Below, in pieces: positions 33,057 to 62,347 of a DNA stretch of 64,000 bases. The position numbers were made by a program, and so were the translations under genes. Positions within the stretch are counted from its first letter, which is position 1. The number at the start of each line of letters is the position of its first letter. Origin of the DNA: a bacterium (GTDB lineage: Bacteria > UBP4 > UBA4092 > JAOAEQ01); the NCBI GenBank assembly GCA_026416715.1, contig JAOAEQ010000017.1, positions 4,870 through 68,869 on the forward strand, read 5' to 3'. The notes under the pieces are model-generated. The model was not told where the DNA came from. It saw only the letters and a list, made by a program, of their open reading frames with translations, and searched no databases.

Positions 33057-33499
33057 GAGAAAATAATATTTCTAAACAAATGTAGCATACCATACATTCC
33101 AGTAAACTCCAATTACATTTTGGTAATCGATGGTAACTTTTTTACCCATTGTTAACGGTTGCGACCGGCTCGGTACAGCTTAACCGCAATACATCACTTA
33201 AAATCTACCTTCTGATAACTTACCATCCTGATTTGATTAACCTTAACGGAATTTAACGGTTTCGAAGTGATACCCGAATTGATCGGTTCAATTCGGGTTC
33301 TACCCCGCTTTCGGTTCAGATTATATTTCGGGGTATTCGCTGATTTAATTTCGGTATAGTTTTCGCATAGTAAATTATGGTGTAGCCGCTGGTTTTCAAT
33401 GATAAACATTAACCATTATTGTATCTGACTAGTTGACGAAATACTTTAGTCAGAGATACAATGGTATAGATATTGGAAGAACTTATTGGAGGAGATATT
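33057..33499. other. Divergent intergenic region between priA and the FHA gene
   Basis: No convincing gene; a 71-codon minus-strand ORF lacks coding character. A perfect hairpin ACCCGAATTGA / TCAATTCGGGT lies at 33272-33298 and shares its 11-base stem with the hairpin at 51379. The last 40 bases hold GGAGGAG, the ribosome-binding site for the FHA gene. Confidence 0.6.
33272..33298. repeat. Hairpin, copy 1 of a shared 11-bp stem
   Basis: ACCCGAATTGA and TCAATTCGGGT flank a 5-base loop. The stem recurs exactly at 51379-51405 with a different loop. As it sits between divergent genes, termination is unlikely to be its role here. Confidence 0.7.
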
Positions 33500-49257: not shown

Positions 49258-51219
49258 ATGAACGTTAGATATGGTTTATTCGTATTATTGCTCTTGAGTT
49301 TTGTAATTTCACAGGGGTATGCTGGAGACCGATTCTGGTCGCAGCTCGGTCCAGAAGGGGGAAGTATTCGGTCGTTGGCAATAGACCAAACGAATCCGAA
49401 TAATATCTATCTCGGTGCCGATGCTGGTGGTGGCGTATATAAATCTACTGACGGCGGGACGTCCTGGCGATTGATAATAATCGGGTTAGGGGCAAAAGAA
49501 GTTTATGCGCTAGCAATTGACCCTATCCATTCGAATATTATCTATGCAGGAACTGGTTCTTCCGGAGTATATAAAAGTTATGATTTCGGAGAGACTTGGT
49601 CGCGAATCTCGACCGGAATGCAAGCGCTAACAATAAACGCACTCGTTATCCATCCGACGAATCCGAATATTATTTATGCCGGCACCTATTACTACGGAGT
49701 ATATCGCAGCGATAATGCTGGAGTTACTTGGACGCAGGTTATTAATGGTATGGGAAATCAGGAAGTTTATGCACTTGCGATTGACCCGAAAAATCCGACG
49801 ACGATATACGCTGGAACGGATTATTACGGTGTATTTAAATCAACGAATAGCGGAAATAATTGGACGCAAATAACGAACGGAATGGGCAATAAAACTGTTT
49901 TATCGTTAGCGATTGACCCTGTTGATTCAAATATTGTTTATGCAGGAACCTATAGTAACGGAGTATATATTTCAACTGATGGCGGCGGGTATTGGACGCA
50001 ATCGAATACTGGAATGGGCTCGAAAGATGTCGCCGCATTAAAAATTGACCCGAATAATAATAAAACTATTTATGCCGGAACTTGGCAAAGTGGAATGTAT
50101 AAAAGCACGAATAGTGGAGCTAGTTGGAGTTGGATTTATTCTGGAATGGGAACGACCCGATGGACGGATTGCGTGGCAATCCATCCAACGAATCCGAATA
50201 TTGTCTTTGCTGGAACCTGGCTTGCTGGACTCTATAAATCAACGAATGCTGGCAGCAGTTGGTCGCTTTCAAACACTGGCATTTCTGCGCGTGAAATAAC
50301 TTCTCTAGCCATAGATGCAACGAATCCAAATATTCTCTATTGCGGATTATGGGGTGCTTCCGGCGTATTCAAAACGTTGAATGCAGGAACAACGTGGTCA
50401 CAGGTTACGGTCGGGATGGGATATAAATATATCGAATGTTTAACCGCTGACCCGATACAATCGAATATCGTCTATGCAGGAACCAGCGGATATGGAATAT
50501 ATAAGACTATTAATGGTGGCGCATCTTGGTCGAATAAAACCACCGGAATCGGACAACCCAGCGTGTATGCACTTGCGGTTGCTCAGAATAATTCAAATAT
50601 TATCTATGCAGGAACAGGTGGATATGGCGTTTATAAAAGCGTTAATGCCGGAGATACTTGGTCATCTGTAACAACGGGTCTCGATGAATCATATATCTAT
50701 TCACTTGCAATCCATCCTTCAAATAACAATATTGTTTATGCTGGAACCGCAGGTTCAGGAGTATATAAAACAAGTAACGGTGGGATAACTTGGTCAGCTA
50801 GTAATACCGGTATCGAATCGGAATATATCTATTGTTTAACATTCCATCCAACGAATACAACTATTATTTACGCCGGAACCGCCGGGAGTGGAGTATATAA
50901 ATCTGAAAATGCAGGGATATTCTGGACTCCGCTTAACTCCGGTTTGGAAGAGAAATATGTTGTTTCTATCGCTATCGATTCATCGAATCCGAACCTACTC
51001 TATGCAGCAACTGATGATTCCGGCGTTTATTTCAGTAATAATGCCGGCACTTCGTGGCAACCGTTCAATACCCGATTGGCGAATCTCCGTATTAACCAAA
51101 TTCTGCTAAACCAACGCATACCGCAAACCATCTACGCTGCTACCGACGGCACCGGCGTCTGGGCGCATACCGTTATTCCCACTCAAGTTGAACCTGTTTA
51201 TTGGGAAATTCTTAATTAA
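49258..51219 (+). CDS. Secreted Asp-box (sortilin/VPS10-like) repeat protein
   Basis: A 653-aa exported protein. MNVRYGLFVLLLLSFVISQGYAG is a signal peptide. About thirteen repeats of some 45 residues follow, each with the pattern IYAGT-x-x-x-GVYKS-x-x-G-x-x-W and an Asp/Pro-rich turn, as in the ten-bladed VPS10/sortilin and photosystem-assembly beta-propellers. The repeats are nearly identical in places, implying recent internal duplication. No lipobox, membrane anchor or clear type IX sorting tail is present; it ends ...VEPVYWEILN. It probably acts outside the cell, perhaps in binding, but its ligand is unknown. Confidence 0.88.
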   Translation: MNVRYGLFVLLLLSFVISQGYAGDRFWSQLGPEGGSIRSLAIDQTNPNNIYLGADAGGGVYKSTDGGTSWRLIIIGLGAKEVYALAIDPIHSNIIYAGTGSSGVYKSYDFGETWSRISTGMQALTINALVIHPTNPNIIYAGTYYYGVYRSDNAGVTWTQVINGMGNQEVYALAIDPKNPTTIYAGTDYYGVFKSTNSGNNWTQITNGMGNKTVLSLAIDPVDSNIVYAGTYSNGVYISTDGGGYWTQSNTGMGSKDVAALKIDPNNNKTIYAGTWQSGMYKSTNSGASWSWIYSGMGTTRWTDCVAIHPTNPNIVFAGTWLAGLYKSTNAGSSWSLSNTGISAREITSLAIDATNPNILYCGLWGASGVFKTLNAGTTWSQVTVGMGYKYIECLTADPIQSNIVYAGTSGYGIYKTINGGASWSNKTTGIGQPSVYALAVAQNNSNIIYAGTGGYGVYKSVNAGDTWSSVTTGLDESYIYSLAIHPSNNNIVYAGTAGSGVYKTSNGGITWSASNTGIESEYIYCLTFHPTNTTIIYAGTAGSGVYKSENAGIFWTPLNSGLEEKYVVSIAIDSSNPNLLYAATDDSGVYFSNNAGTSWQPFNTRLANLRINQILLNQRIPQTIYAATDGTGVWAHTVIPTQVEPVYWEILN

Positions 51220-51378
51220 CATCAATTCAAAAAGATAAAGCTTGAACGTTAAAAGTTAAAAAATTATGTTGCCACAACAATTAGATTTTCCATTAGATAT
51301 TTTGACTTTTACACTGATTTTCTTAGAGTTACTATACTTGCTGAGTTTTGTTTGTTCCTGGAGTCTATCTGGAGCGGA

Positions 51379-51405
51379 ACCCGAATTGATTCGATCAATT
51401 CGGGT
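51379..51405. repeat. Hairpin, copy 2 of the shared 11-bp stem
   Basis: ACCCGAATTGA (51379-51389) and TCAATTCGGGT (51395-51405) flank TTCGA. The stem is identical to that at 33272, while the loop differs. It lies between convergent genes and is followed by TTCTCG, so termination is possible. Confidence 0.7.
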
Positions 51406-51432
51406 TTCTCGCCCTATATGGTATGATGTTTA

Positions 51433-57891: not shown

Positions 57892-58797
57892 ATGCTGGAT
57901 TATTGTAGATATATATTATATATCAGTTTACTATCATTTAGCATATCGCTAGCTATCGCTGAAGAAATCGGATTCGGCGGGTTAGGAATTCAAATATCGC
58001 AAGACGGTAACCGATTTACTATCCTTGGGGTACTTCCCAATACTCCTGCGGAGAAAGCAGAGTTACCTACCGGGGCGAGTATCGTTGCGATTAATGGGGA
58101 ACCTACTGCCGGAAAAACACTCGAAGAAATTGTCGCTCAACTGCGGGGAGAAGTCGGTACCTCAGTTAGGTTAACCATCACTATTCCGCGAACCGACCCA
58201 GCTTCGGCGGAAACTCGCGAAATCGAACTCCGCCGTGAATTCATTAAGGTACCGCCAGGATTATTCGCTCCGGATACAACACCTCGTGCTCCATCTCCTT
58301 CAGCATCAGGTATCCCGATACGCGGGTCGGTAACCTTCTATATTATTACTATACCAAAATCTGGCGAAATTAAAATCGGAACGACAACGTTAATTCGATT
58401 AATGCTTGAAAATCCGAAAGGCGTTTATGCAGATAAAATCGCTATGTACCTTAAATATGACCCGCACATTTTTCATGGATATACTCCGCTATTCGATATT
58501 AACACAGTATTACTTGCTGGATGGACTCAAGAGACAGTCGCGCAAGATACGACTTCCGGTAGCATCTATTTTGCGTTTCGAACACCTACGGCACAACTTA
58601 TAAAATCCGGTTGTCTTGCGGAAATTCGGTTAATCCCGCACCAAGCGACGTTCGACACCCAAATCCAGTATCTGTTTAACGAATGGGAACGAGAACCTAA
58701 TACCGTATTCATCTATCGTGGAAAAGATTTGTTGGGTAGTGAACTCGACCATAACGATGGCACAATGGGAGTTAGATTAAGAATCAATAAAGATTAA
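57892..58797 (+). CDS. Secreted PDZ and cohesin-like domain protein
   Basis: A 301-aa exported protein. MLDYCRYILYISLLSFSISLAIA is a signal peptide. A PDZ domain follows (about residues 24-120) with FGGLGIQISQDGNRFTILGVLPNTPAEKAELPTGASIVAINGEP. A second, beta-rich domain (about 140-290) with VTFYIITIPKSGEIKIGTTTLIRL and KIAMYLKYDPHIF resembles a cohesin/carbohydrate-binding-like jelly roll, weakly. No protease domain is attached, so it may act as an adaptor. It ends 16 bp before the NMT1-like gene and may be co-transcribed with it. Confidence 0.75.
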   Translation: MLDYCRYILYISLLSFSISLAIAEEIGFGGLGIQISQDGNRFTILGVLPNTPAEKAELPTGASIVAINGEPTAGKTLEEIVAQLRGEVGTSVRLTITIPRTDPASAETREIELRREFIKVPPGLFAPDTTPRAPSPSASGIPIRGSVTFYIITIPKSGEIKIGTTTLIRLMLENPKGVYADKIAMYLKYDPHIFHGYTPLFDINTVLLAGWTQETVAQDTTSGSIYFAFRTPTAQLIKSGCLAEIRLIPHQATFDTQIQYLFNEWEREPNTVFIYRGKDLLGSELDHNDGTMGVRLRINKD

Positions 58798-58807
58798 ATA
58801 TAGAGAA

Positions 58808-58970
58808 ATCCAAATGTCCCATCGTAAATGTCAAATACAGCATACATCAAAAATGCAAATCATAATCCCGCTACGATTTTGGCGTTTGCCCGTTCCATCG
58901 TTCCGGTTAAAGCTTTTAGAACTTTCATTCGGAATTTGGATTTTGGTGTTTGGCCTTTGTTTTCTAACCG
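58808..58970. repeat. Heptamer-register palindrome overlapping the NMT1-like gene start
   Basis: The left arm (58808-58863) is a run of 7-base words such as ATCCAAA, TCGTAAA, TGTCAAA, TACATCA. The right arm (58929-58970) holds TCGGAAT, TTGGATT, TTGGTGT, TTGGCCT. The arms are roughly complementary. The ATG at 58814 lies inside the left arm. Confidence 0.65.
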
Positions 58971-59980
58971 GCTGTGGTTCTTCCAAAAAAGGAATAGGAA
59001 ATGAACTAGAGAGAGTCACGTTACGGTTGAATGGAGAACTCGGAGTCCAATATGCTGGATATTATACCGCACTAACGAAAGGATTTTATCTTCAGGAAGG
59101 GTTAGAGGTTAAAATCAATCCGAGCGATTGGGAAGATGCTCCGGAAGAGTATATCTTATCAGGAAATGAAACGTTTGGCGTAACCTGGCTTCCTAATCTC
59201 TTGGTATCTAGGGATAAAGGGAAACCATTGGTTCATATCGCCCAAATTTTTCAACGGAGCGGGTTGCGGATTATTGCTAAAAAATCCAGCGGGATTCAAG
59301 AACCAACTGATTTGATCCATAAACGGCTCGGACTCTGGTCGAAAAACCGCGAATATGGAATTATGACCTTTTTAACCCTAGCGGGACTCGATGCAAATAT
59401 TGTTAAACTTCTCCCGCAGAAGAAAACGATAAAACCGTTCCTTGAGAATCAGGTTGATGCTATTCCAGTTATGGTCTATGACGGTTACATAACCCTACTT
59501 GAAAAAGGCATTGATACAACTGCTCTGACTATTTTTGATGCTGCAACCCCACTTGAAGTTTCTGGACAAACGTTACCGTGGGGATTATTAGAAGACGGAA
59601 TTTTTGTTACGGAAAAGACGTTACACGAACAACCGGAACTCTGTGAACGCTTCTTGCGTGCAACTCTAAAAGGATGGCAATACGCGCTCGATAATCCAGG
59701 TGAAGCGGTAGAGATTGTCTTAAGTTATGATACTCAGAATATCTTGAAACGGGAACATGAACTTGCAGGATTGCGCGAAATCATCAAACTTATCCGGCCG
59801 GAATTGACTACGATGTCGTTAGGTGAACCGACTGCAGTTAAAAAATCGTATCCGCTCGGATATCTTAATCTCAACGAATTTAACCGCTGTGTTGAACTTC
59901 TCCGCAAACAAGGATATCTTACCCAAGATGCTAGTTCTACCGCTTATACACACGCTATTTGGGAAAAAAGCCGCAAATAG
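58814..59980 (+). CDS. NMT1/THI5-like substrate-binding lipoprotein
   Basis: A 388-aa lipoprotein. The first 53 residues hold a signal peptide whose hydrophobic core, FGIWILVFGLCFLTGC, ends in a good lipobox (LTGC); this core is encoded by a palindromic repeat arm. The mature part is an NMT1/SsuA-type periplasmic-binding protein: VQYAGYYTALTKGFYLQEGLEV, FGVTWLPNLLVSRDKGKPLVHIAQIFQRSGLRIIAKKSSGI. Such proteins bind thiamine-pyrimidine precursors or sulfonates. No ABC permease or ATPase gene follows. ATG 58853 is an alternative start, since no ribosome-binding site is clear at 58814. Confidence 0.85.
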   Translation: MSHRKCQIQHTSKMQIIIPLRFWRLPVPSFRLKLLELSFGIWILVFGLCFLTGCGSSKKGIGNELERVTLRLNGELGVQYAGYYTALTKGFYLQEGLEVKINPSDWEDAPEEYILSGNETFGVTWLPNLLVSRDKGKPLVHIAQIFQRSGLRIIAKKSSGIQEPTDLIHKRLGLWSKNREYGIMTFLTLAGLDANIVKLLPQKKTIKPFLENQVDAIPVMVYDGYITLLEKGIDTTALTIFDAATPLEVSGQTLPWGLLEDGIFVTEKTLHEQPELCERFLRATLKGWQYALDNPGEAVEIVLSYDTQNILKREHELAGLREIIKLIRPELTTMSLGEPTAVKKSYPLGYLNLNEFNRCVELLRKQGYLTQDASSTAYTHAIWEKSRK

Positions 59981-60130: not shown

Positions 60131-62347
60131 CTATCCTAAATCAGGCGATTTCGGTCGAGTTATCTTGCGGCGGGTAAAATAAAACGTCAATCCTATTCCG
60201 ATGAAACTGGTTATGGTAAGAATCCAGCCAAGGGTTTCCGCCCAAGTGTTTCGGTAGGTCAATTCAACCTGATAATTTTCTCCTTTCGGCAGGGTTAATC
60301 GCATTAACCCTATTTCATCAGCAAGTATAGTAATTTGGAATTTGGAATTTGACGTTTGATATTTGGATAACGTTGCTTGCCAGCAGGGATAGTATGCAAC
60401 TTTAACTAAAACCGGAACGTCCGTTTCTGCAGATTGAACGGATAAGGTTATCCGGTCTCCTGAAAAAGATGTAACTTGAATATCTGCGCGCGTAGTATCG
60501 TATTCAATCCAGCTCGAAGTATAAGAAGGTATATCATAGATATTAAATTCATCGATTTCTCGAACCAATCGGAAGGTTGAACTACGGTTGAAAAACGCAA
60601 TAACCTTATCTTCATTGCGGTTAGTAACAATTGTCGTGATATTCATTTTTCGGCAGAACGCGAATAACCGCGATTCTTCCATCAGCTCCCAAGGAACGCC
60701 CAGCAGCGAGCGATTATCCAGCGAATCCGCTTCTTGCCGGATAACGATTGGCGCTTTCTTGCCGAAAAAGAGATAACTCGCTACAGTATAAAATGGCGTA
60801 TTCAATCCGCCGATAATCTGCCGGCCAGTATATATTGGAGTTAAACTCATACTATGCGTCTGGAATTGCGGGGGTAATGTTTTATATTTCAACGAACTTG
60901 CGGTGAAGAGAATTCTTCCTGCATCAATTGCAGAGGTATAATAATTCTGACTTCTGCCTTCTGGGTTCTTGCCTTTATCTTCTGTCAGGTGTTTCCAAAG
61001 TTCATCCAGTTGATATTCTTTAACCACCGTCGGTAGGAATCCAATTCGGTTATATCCTTGCGAGAAATCGTAAAATGTCCAGAGTATCGTTCCTGAAAAC
61101 CAAAAAATACCGAGGAGAATAATCAGGAGAAATAACGTGATTAGAAATGGATACACAATTCTCATTCCAAATTGAGCAGGCAGCAGTTTAACTGTAAAAT
61201 TTGCAATGCTAATTCTGCATTTTGCAATGAGTTCATAGATTCCAATCCCGCTAGTGAGGATAACCGCAAAATGGAATCCGTCTTTCAATCGAACAACATC
61301 GAGAAAATAGAAATGGAATATCGGGATTAGAATGAGCTGAACGAAAGTCAGAAATCCAAGCATTAAGAGCGGAGTAACGACCAACCCGGCTAGGATAGCT
61401 TTCTGACGAACCGGCTGATTCGGATTCAAGAGCGAAACCGCACTGACGAGATATAAGAGCAGGAAAAAGAGATTGGTTTTCCCATCCGCTAATGAGGAGA
61501 GTAACGCTAGTAATGCTGCGAATTGATTCCCGGTTTCCTGCCCTGACCAGATTTGAAGTGAAGAAACATAATTATGCCGGATAAATAGCGGCACCCACCA
61601 GAACGCACTTAACCCTAACCCTAGTAGAATCGCAAGTCCGAAAACGTTCAGTGATTTCCGCAATGAACATTGTTTCGTTCGTTTGAATCCATAGAGCATT
61701 GCGATTAATCCGAATATCGGCAAAAAGATATGGTATGGATGACACACCAACGCAAGAGCAAATAATCCTGCTAACCCAGCGATATTGCGTTTTCTCGGTT
61801 TCGCAACCAGATTCTTGATACCGAACCAGAGAATTAACGGATAGAATCCGAGCGCAATCCGTGAATTCGTTAATCCGACCAGAACACCATAAAATACGCC
61901 GCTGGCGTTCCCGAGCTCGAGCAGGATGAGGAGATACAATGCGGTGAAGAATCCGGCGATATACCCGAATCCAGATTTTCGAAGGAAATAATAACTCGTT
62001 ATTACTGGGAAAAATAAGGCGAATAACAGAATGAAATTGTATATCTGCCCGATGGGAACAAGGGTTAAACAGAGATAATAGAACAAGATACCCAAAAAAA
62101 TCGACCCCGGCGGATAAAATTGCAGTTCCGGAATCCCAGCGAACCAATATGGATTCCAATCAACCAGCCGATGATGAACCGGAACGGATTGAGTTACCGC
62201 ATAATACAGCGAAAAATAATGGAAACTATTATCATCATAAATAAACGGCTGGGAATTAAACAGAAATCCGAAGGTATATAGGCCTAAGATTACTAAAAGG
62301 AAAATAGGGAAAAAACAGAACCAAAAATGCTTACGCTTCTTTTGCAT
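60131..62347 (-). CDS. PTPS-related polytopic membrane protein
   Basis: A 738-aa membrane protein with about a dozen helices and an outer C-terminal domain. SQPFIYDDNSFHYFSLYYAVTQ and VDWNPYWFAGIPELQFYPPGS near the N terminus are typical of the PTPS_related (6-pyruvoyl-tetrahydropterin synthase-related) membrane family, a GT-C-like group. The C terminus has VKVAYYPCWQATL and PKGENYQVELTYRNT, matching YfhO's YYPGWRAYV and PPGNYQVEFRYF. Between them an extra segment (KYQTSNSKFQI) is encoded by a heptamer repeat at 60335-60369. Likely an envelope glycosylation enzyme; donor unknown. Confidence 0.78.
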   Translation of the reverse strand: MQKKRKHFWFCFFPIFLLVILGLYTFGFLFNSQPFIYDDNSFHYFSLYYAVTQSVPVHHRLVDWNPYWFAGIPELQFYPPGSIFLGILFYYLCLTLVPIGQIYNFILLFALFFPVITSYYFLRKSGFGYIAGFFTALYLLILLELGNASGVFYGVLVGLTNSRIALGFYPLILWFGIKNLVAKPRKRNIAGLAGLFALALVCHPYHIFLPIFGLIAMLYGFKRTKQCSLRKSLNVFGLAILLGLGLSAFWWVPLFIRHNYVSSLQIWSGQETGNQFAALLALLSSLADGKTNLFFLLLYLVSAVSLLNPNQPVRQKAILAGLVVTPLLMLGFLTFVQLILIPIFHFYFLDVVRLKDGFHFAVILTSGIGIYELIAKCRISIANFTVKLLPAQFGMRIVYPFLITLFLLIILLGIFWFSGTILWTFYDFSQGYNRIGFLPTVVKEYQLDELWKHLTEDKGKNPEGRSQNYYTSAIDAGRILFTASSLKYKTLPPQFQTHSMSLTPIYTGRQIIGGLNTPFYTVASYLFFGKKAPIVIRQEADSLDNRSLLGVPWELMEESRLFAFCRKMNITTIVTNRNEDKVIAFFNRSSTFRLVREIDEFNIYDIPSYTSSWIEYDTTRADIQVTSFSGDRITLSVQSAETDVPVLVKVAYYPCWQATLSKYQTSNSKFQITILADEIGLMRLTLPKGENYQVELTYRNTWAETLGWILTITSFIGIGLTFYFTRRKITRPKSPDLG
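60335..60369 (+). repeat. Intragenic heptamer repeat
   Basis: Five consecutive words TTGGAAT, TTGGAAT, TTGACGT, TTGATAT, TTGGATA in an exact 7-base register. Read on the minus strand they encode the loop segment of the PTPS-related protein. Confidence 0.75.

Follow-up and report, generated by a model that had tools for sequence, protein, structure and literature searches.

The signal peptide of an NMT1/THI5-like substrate-binding lipoprotein encoded in the analyzed window (a bacterial DNA stretch of 64,000 nucleotides) is best explained by the co-option of a palindromic repeat found throughout the genome, a reading which we regard as quite likely on the basis of sequence comparison. Signal peptides diverge fast, so that their origin generally has to be inferred; here, the presumed source can be recognized in two to four proteins of the same genome, and the idea that repeats give rise to signal peptides becomes directly testable. 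The principle of a repeat-derived signal peptide is already known from Yersinia; the heptad layout, the involvement of conserved proteins, the recurrence within one genome and the frame arithmetic described below were not found in the literature searched, where the sequence of the repeat and the peptide it encodes gave no match either.

The Lipoprotein Gene and Its Hydrophobic Core

The lipoprotein gene (58814 to 59980, forward strand) consists of an intact open reading frame of 388 amino acids counted from ATG 58814, was also called as a gene from its codon usage, and matches PF09084 with an E-value of 2.6e-40 and 139.1 bits (gathering cut-off 20.5), which identifies its product as an NMT1/THI5-like binding protein. 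It follows a co-directional gene for a PDZ-domain protein (57892 to 58797, forward strand), whose stop codon lies about 10 bases 5' of the repeat copy. The N-terminus of the lipoprotein reads MSHRKCQIQHTSKMQIIIPLRFWRLPVPSFRLKLLELSFGIWILVFGLCFLTGCGSS. Lipoprotein signal peptides have a hydrophobic core followed by a lipobox of the form [LVI][ASTVI][GAS]C, and the core FGIWILVFGLCF is indeed followed by LTGC (residues 51 to 54; 58964 to 58975, forward strand), as expected for a type II signal peptide; the GCG at this site is invariant in the alignment of homologues. This LTGC lipobox is not itself derived from the repeat.

The right arm of the repeat, TTCGGAA-TTTGGAT-TTTGGTG-TTTGGCC-TTTG (58928 to 58959, forward strand), contains no mismatch to the heptad pattern, and its words run uninterrupted and in frame with the open reading frame, encoding residues 39 to 49 (FGIWILVFGLC), the hydrophobic core; among the 13-residue stretches of the N-terminus, the one starting at residue 39 is also the most hydrophobic. 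The original prediction that the arm words encode FGIWILVFGL is thus borne out, with the correction that they do not end directly before LTGC, as the residues CF intervene. The arm represents the best run of four heptads (TTYGGNN) in the 2.96-Mb genome and the only match without mismatches to the 26-base four-heptad pattern, which is found 15 times genome-wide with up to two mismatches, vs. no match for the reversed control. Among 129 hydrophobic N-termini taken from the window and 20 further stretches, the other 128 all showed at least six mismatches, and of 400,000 simulated cores that drew on the same pool of codons, one showed two mismatches and none fewer; these mismatch figures do not constitute a strict test, because the pattern was written after the site in the window had been seen and the codons of the site are part of the simulation pool. 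The repeat family itself is evidence independent of the mismatch statistics. A simple repeat finder gave no match at the locus, because the words are degenerate.

The Repeat Family and Its Copy in the Window

A view on the whole genome shows 103 matches to a three-heptad pattern with up to two mismatches, compared with 24 for the reversed control. The consensus of the aligned copies, (CCAAAAT)n CCAAATAAATCATT ... TGATTAANNGATTTATTTG ... ATTTGGATTTTG, describes a palindrome that is imperfect and about 100 bases long, and most copies match the family model on both strands. A covariance model built without the copy in the window yielded 54 matches at E-values of up to 0.1, including the window copy, and the copies in the sequence examined merge into about 33 places, which are mostly located at gene junctions and often only a few bases away from a stop or start codon. 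Inspection by eye also revealed copies within apparent operons, between groES/groEL-like genes (L051) and nuoJ/nuoK-like genes (L029), the latter copy providing the upstream gene with a polar C-terminal tail.

The window copy (about 58808 to 58954) is longer than the typical copies of about 100 bases and has fuzzy ends. A profile built without it matches positions 58949 to 58809 over both arms with 17.1 bits, vs. a best score of 14.1 bits in 3.2 Mb of simulated sequence, and the covariance model, likewise trained without it, recovers it as C17:63671-63827 with an E-value of 0.025. As judged from these models, the locus is a copy of the repeat family, and the earlier proposal that a repeat supplies the core of the signal peptide gains support from both models as well as from the perfect arm that is unique in the genome. 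Of the two inverted arms that characterize the family, the right one is strong and the left one degenerate in the window copy. The left arm (58808 to 58866, forward strand) is composed of degenerate CCAAANN/AAATGTC heptads with a polar and basic reading; compared with itself, it agrees best at an offset of 7 bases (25/56), taken alone it scores 5 bits without significance, and in the window-free profile its reverse strand aligns with the family motif TATTTGACATTT. The middle segment between the arms (58867 to 58927, forward strand) contains an in-frame TTG at 58886. The window copy does not form a stable hairpin, its z-score of -0.81 being no better than that of shuffled sequences, while nine other copies range from -1.1 to -4.6. 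This weakness is consistent with decay, and a stable hairpin is not a strict requirement of the family, as some of the other copies are weak too.

A second heptad arm in the window (60306 to 60368) is read antisense and in frame within an open reading frame at 60131 to 62347 on the reverse strand, where it contributes the polar stretch SKYQTSNSKFQI to a membrane-protein-like product of 738 amino acids.

Start Codons and Homologues

Three in-frame start candidates precede the core, ATG 58814, ATG 58853 and TTG 58886, which place the lipobox cysteine at residue 54, 41 or 30, respectively. Both ATG codons lie inside the left arm, in agreement with the original prediction that this arm carries the presumed ATG, and the TTG lies between the arms. 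According to the PROSITE rule, the cysteine of lipoproteins is found about 15 to 35 residues from the start and is preceded by a basic n-region. The distances from either ATG are long for a lipoprotein signal, as opposed to the 30 residues from TTG 58886, and basic residues are present upstream of the core in all three readings. None of the candidates is preceded by a good Shine-Dalgarno sequence, which is also absent at one third of the sampled ATG starts. A start downstream of the repeat finds no support, as none of the in-frame starts 3' of the right arm keeps any signal peptide, and the TTG at residue 44 inside the right arm leaves too short a core. Translation most likely begins at one of the two ATGs within the left arm, or else in the middle segment at TTG 58886.

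The expectation that the signal peptides of orthologues lack the element holds for the homologues scanned. The right arm was detected in 0/96 scanned N-termini of homologues, the best of which showed four mismatches and the next one seven, and the orthologue from the single same-class genome compared (G001) carries an ordinary short lipoprotein signal, MNIKYLTHFIFIFSAVFLICLGGC. The repeat family is also not found in G001, as the model gave no match there even at an E-value of 1. A protein scan of genome contigs with the lipoprotein as query retrieved no relative, and a scan with an alignment as query retrieved 80 remote homologues, none of them close. The phylum was represented by two genomes in the comparison.

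Candidate Cases in Other Exported Proteins

As judged from the encoded N-termini, the repeat appears to have become an export signal in at least one other exported protein of the genome, and probably in two others in all. The clearest case is a Wzi-like protein at C42 (PF14052, 4.2e-82), whose signal peptide MINRFSNLFGFWSLNFGFIILLLTLYFLPAGLYA lies inside a copy that ranks among the strongest (E-value 1.6e-10); this copy is part of the training set of the model, but had been chosen by its DNA before the gene was examined. In the two further, less certain cases a single arm is involved: the core of an M23 peptidase at C21, YLVFGIWILM, comes from a right arm with about three mismatches, and a GspK-like protein at C6 carries an n-region from the left arm, MNIEIQNPHCKIQR, ahead of its leader core.

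An HDAC-like gene at C15 was rejected as a signal-peptide case, since its family is cytoplasmic and the N-terminal extension is most likely spurious, and in several other genes beside copies (NuoK-like and others), the open reading frame reaches the copy only via a seemingly false upstream start. Sense arms match N-termini in 13/17 cases and antisense arms in 2/17; this difference was not given weight, since the TTG codons of the right arm give rise to spurious starts further upstream. The annotation of start sites beside such repeats must be regarded as unreliable.

Discussion

The arms of the repeat have a reading which hardly depends on the frame. Three heptads correspond to seven codons, and because 7 and 3 are coprime, all frames of the 7-base period share one cycle of codons. 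In the case of (TTTGGNN)n it is F-G-[FILV]-W-x-L-x, with computed values of zero stop codons in all frames for any N and a mean hydropathy of +1.2 to +1.5; the inverse arm (CCAAANN)n is equally stop-free and encodes a basic/polar sequence with a computed hydropathy of about -1.9 and a net charge of about +3 per 13 residues. In random DNA of the same composition, 56% of all 39-mers contain a stop codon. Since the arms are inverted as well as frame-independent, a palindromic copy reads basic and then hydrophobic on either strand, with stop codons being possible in the middle. Such a copy would be preadapted on both strands to serve as n-region plus h-region, and this frame independence may be what drives the recruitment of the repeat as a signal peptide.

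The co-option of a repeat has to be weighed against three alternatives. That an ordinary signal peptide came to resemble TTTGGNN heptads in its hydrophobic codons purely by chance is very improbable in our view. Hydrophobic cores do make use of TTT, ATT, TTG and GGN codons, the left arm is weak, and synonymous codons drawn for the given peptide produce a perfect arm in 2.3% of the draws, from which it follows that the signal resides mostly in the peptide; yet none of the simulated cores came within one mismatch, the other real hydrophobic N-termini stayed far from the pattern, and the window-free model covers both arms, including core motifs specific to the family. Moreover, a second exported protein, the Wzi-like one, sits in a strong copy. 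The reading through the repeat may also be artefactual, the element being intergenic and the true lipoprotein start located downstream, as in the HDAC-like and NuoK-like genes. We consider this improbable, because no signal peptide would then be left for a protein with a conserved lipobox GCG and homologues that are signal-bearing binding proteins, and because the TTG inside the arm truncates the core too far, even if several other open reading frames enter copies only by apparently spurious upstream starts and the Shine-Dalgarno sequences are weak at all candidate starts.

The third alternative, that slippage or expansion created the heptads inside a signal peptide already present, without insertion of a palindrome, seems scarcely credible. 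It would account for a right arm far stronger than the left one, and slippage is expected to leave a 7-base periodicity; against this, the alignment to the window-free profile extends over both arms and takes in the core-specific motifs, and the words of the arm differ at their N positions as they do in other copies, instead of being identical.

Under the preferred reading of co-option, a repeat copy in the short gap between the PDZ gene and the lipoprotein gene would by now form the 5' end of the latter. For translation, one of the two left-arm ATGs or TTG 58886 would be the most likely start, so that the left arm and the middle segment would provide the basic n-region and the right arm the hydrophobic h-region, with the LTGC lipobox next, and the product would be exported via Sec and lipidated. 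The past insertion, the start codon used, the export and the lipidation are all inferred. The mature part of the lipoprotein represents an ordinary member of the NMT1/THI5-like binding proteins (PF09084), from which the protein differs by its apparently repeat-derived signal peptide and by the unusually long distance from ATG to the lipobox cysteine.

MITE-derived signal peptides have already been proposed for Yersinia (Delihas, 2007; PMC2759123), where RU-2 makes up a portion of the signal peptide predicted for YPO1552, and further repeat fusions with predicted transmembrane segments have been described (Delihas, 2007; PMC2759123, PMC2229807). The YAPL/RU-2 case resembles ours in that the N-terminal signal peptide of a protein predicted to be exported comes in part from a small intergenic palindromic repeat. 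It involves a 168-bp element and a putative exported protein of 144 amino acids, whereas the copies described here are degenerate and heptad-armed, have frame-independent arms, are associated with several cases in one genome and affect a conserved NMT1-family lipoprotein as well as a Wzi-family protein. The Rickettsia palindromic elements (PMC2229807) are similar in being palindromes of about 100-150 bp which occur between genes and in frame within conserved proteins, but neither signal-peptide formation nor heptad arms are mentioned in their description there. The heptameric direct repeats of Beggiatoaceae (TAACTGA; PMC4679880) share the genome-wide, intergenic distribution and the 7-base unit, but are direct repeats of one fixed word without a palindromic two-arm layout and have been proposed to be regulatory.

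Similar heptad runs are found in other phyla, with 56 matches in G030, 36 in G041 (control 25) and fewer in G025, G056 and G059. As candidate signal peptides, a FlgH-like protein of G025 and some N-terminal heptads of G030 are suggestive, their start sites being ambiguous. Because a copy upstream of an open reading frame reads basic and then hydrophobic in all frames and on both strands with few stop codons, heptad-armed palindromes might act as portable proto-signal peptides, recruited repeatedly in several phyla and more often than mere tolerance would explain, a tentative generalization which we consider rather doubtful.

Most of the sampled heptad runs of G030 (L202-L221; another phylum, 62% GC in the stretches examined) lie in frame inside predicted genes and read SKIQNPKSKIQN or FGFWILD, the hosts being RlmB-like, aconitase-like and others as judged by eye. 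By analogy, these runs look like the behavior of the Rickettsia palindromic elements, i.e., a protein-inserting repeat of the RPE type. The order of the arms is reversed at L181 in G041 (TTTTGG... followed by ...CCAAAA), where they form a near-perfect hairpin. The window itself contains further repetitive sequences: an open reading frame at 49258 to 51219 (653 amino acids) consists largely of 132-base tandem coding repeats of about 60-76% identity, and two similar 32-base palindromes at 33269 to 33300 and 51377 to 51408 (ACCCGAATTGAT...TCAATTCGGGT), which are 91% complementary, possibly represent terminators or another repeat family.
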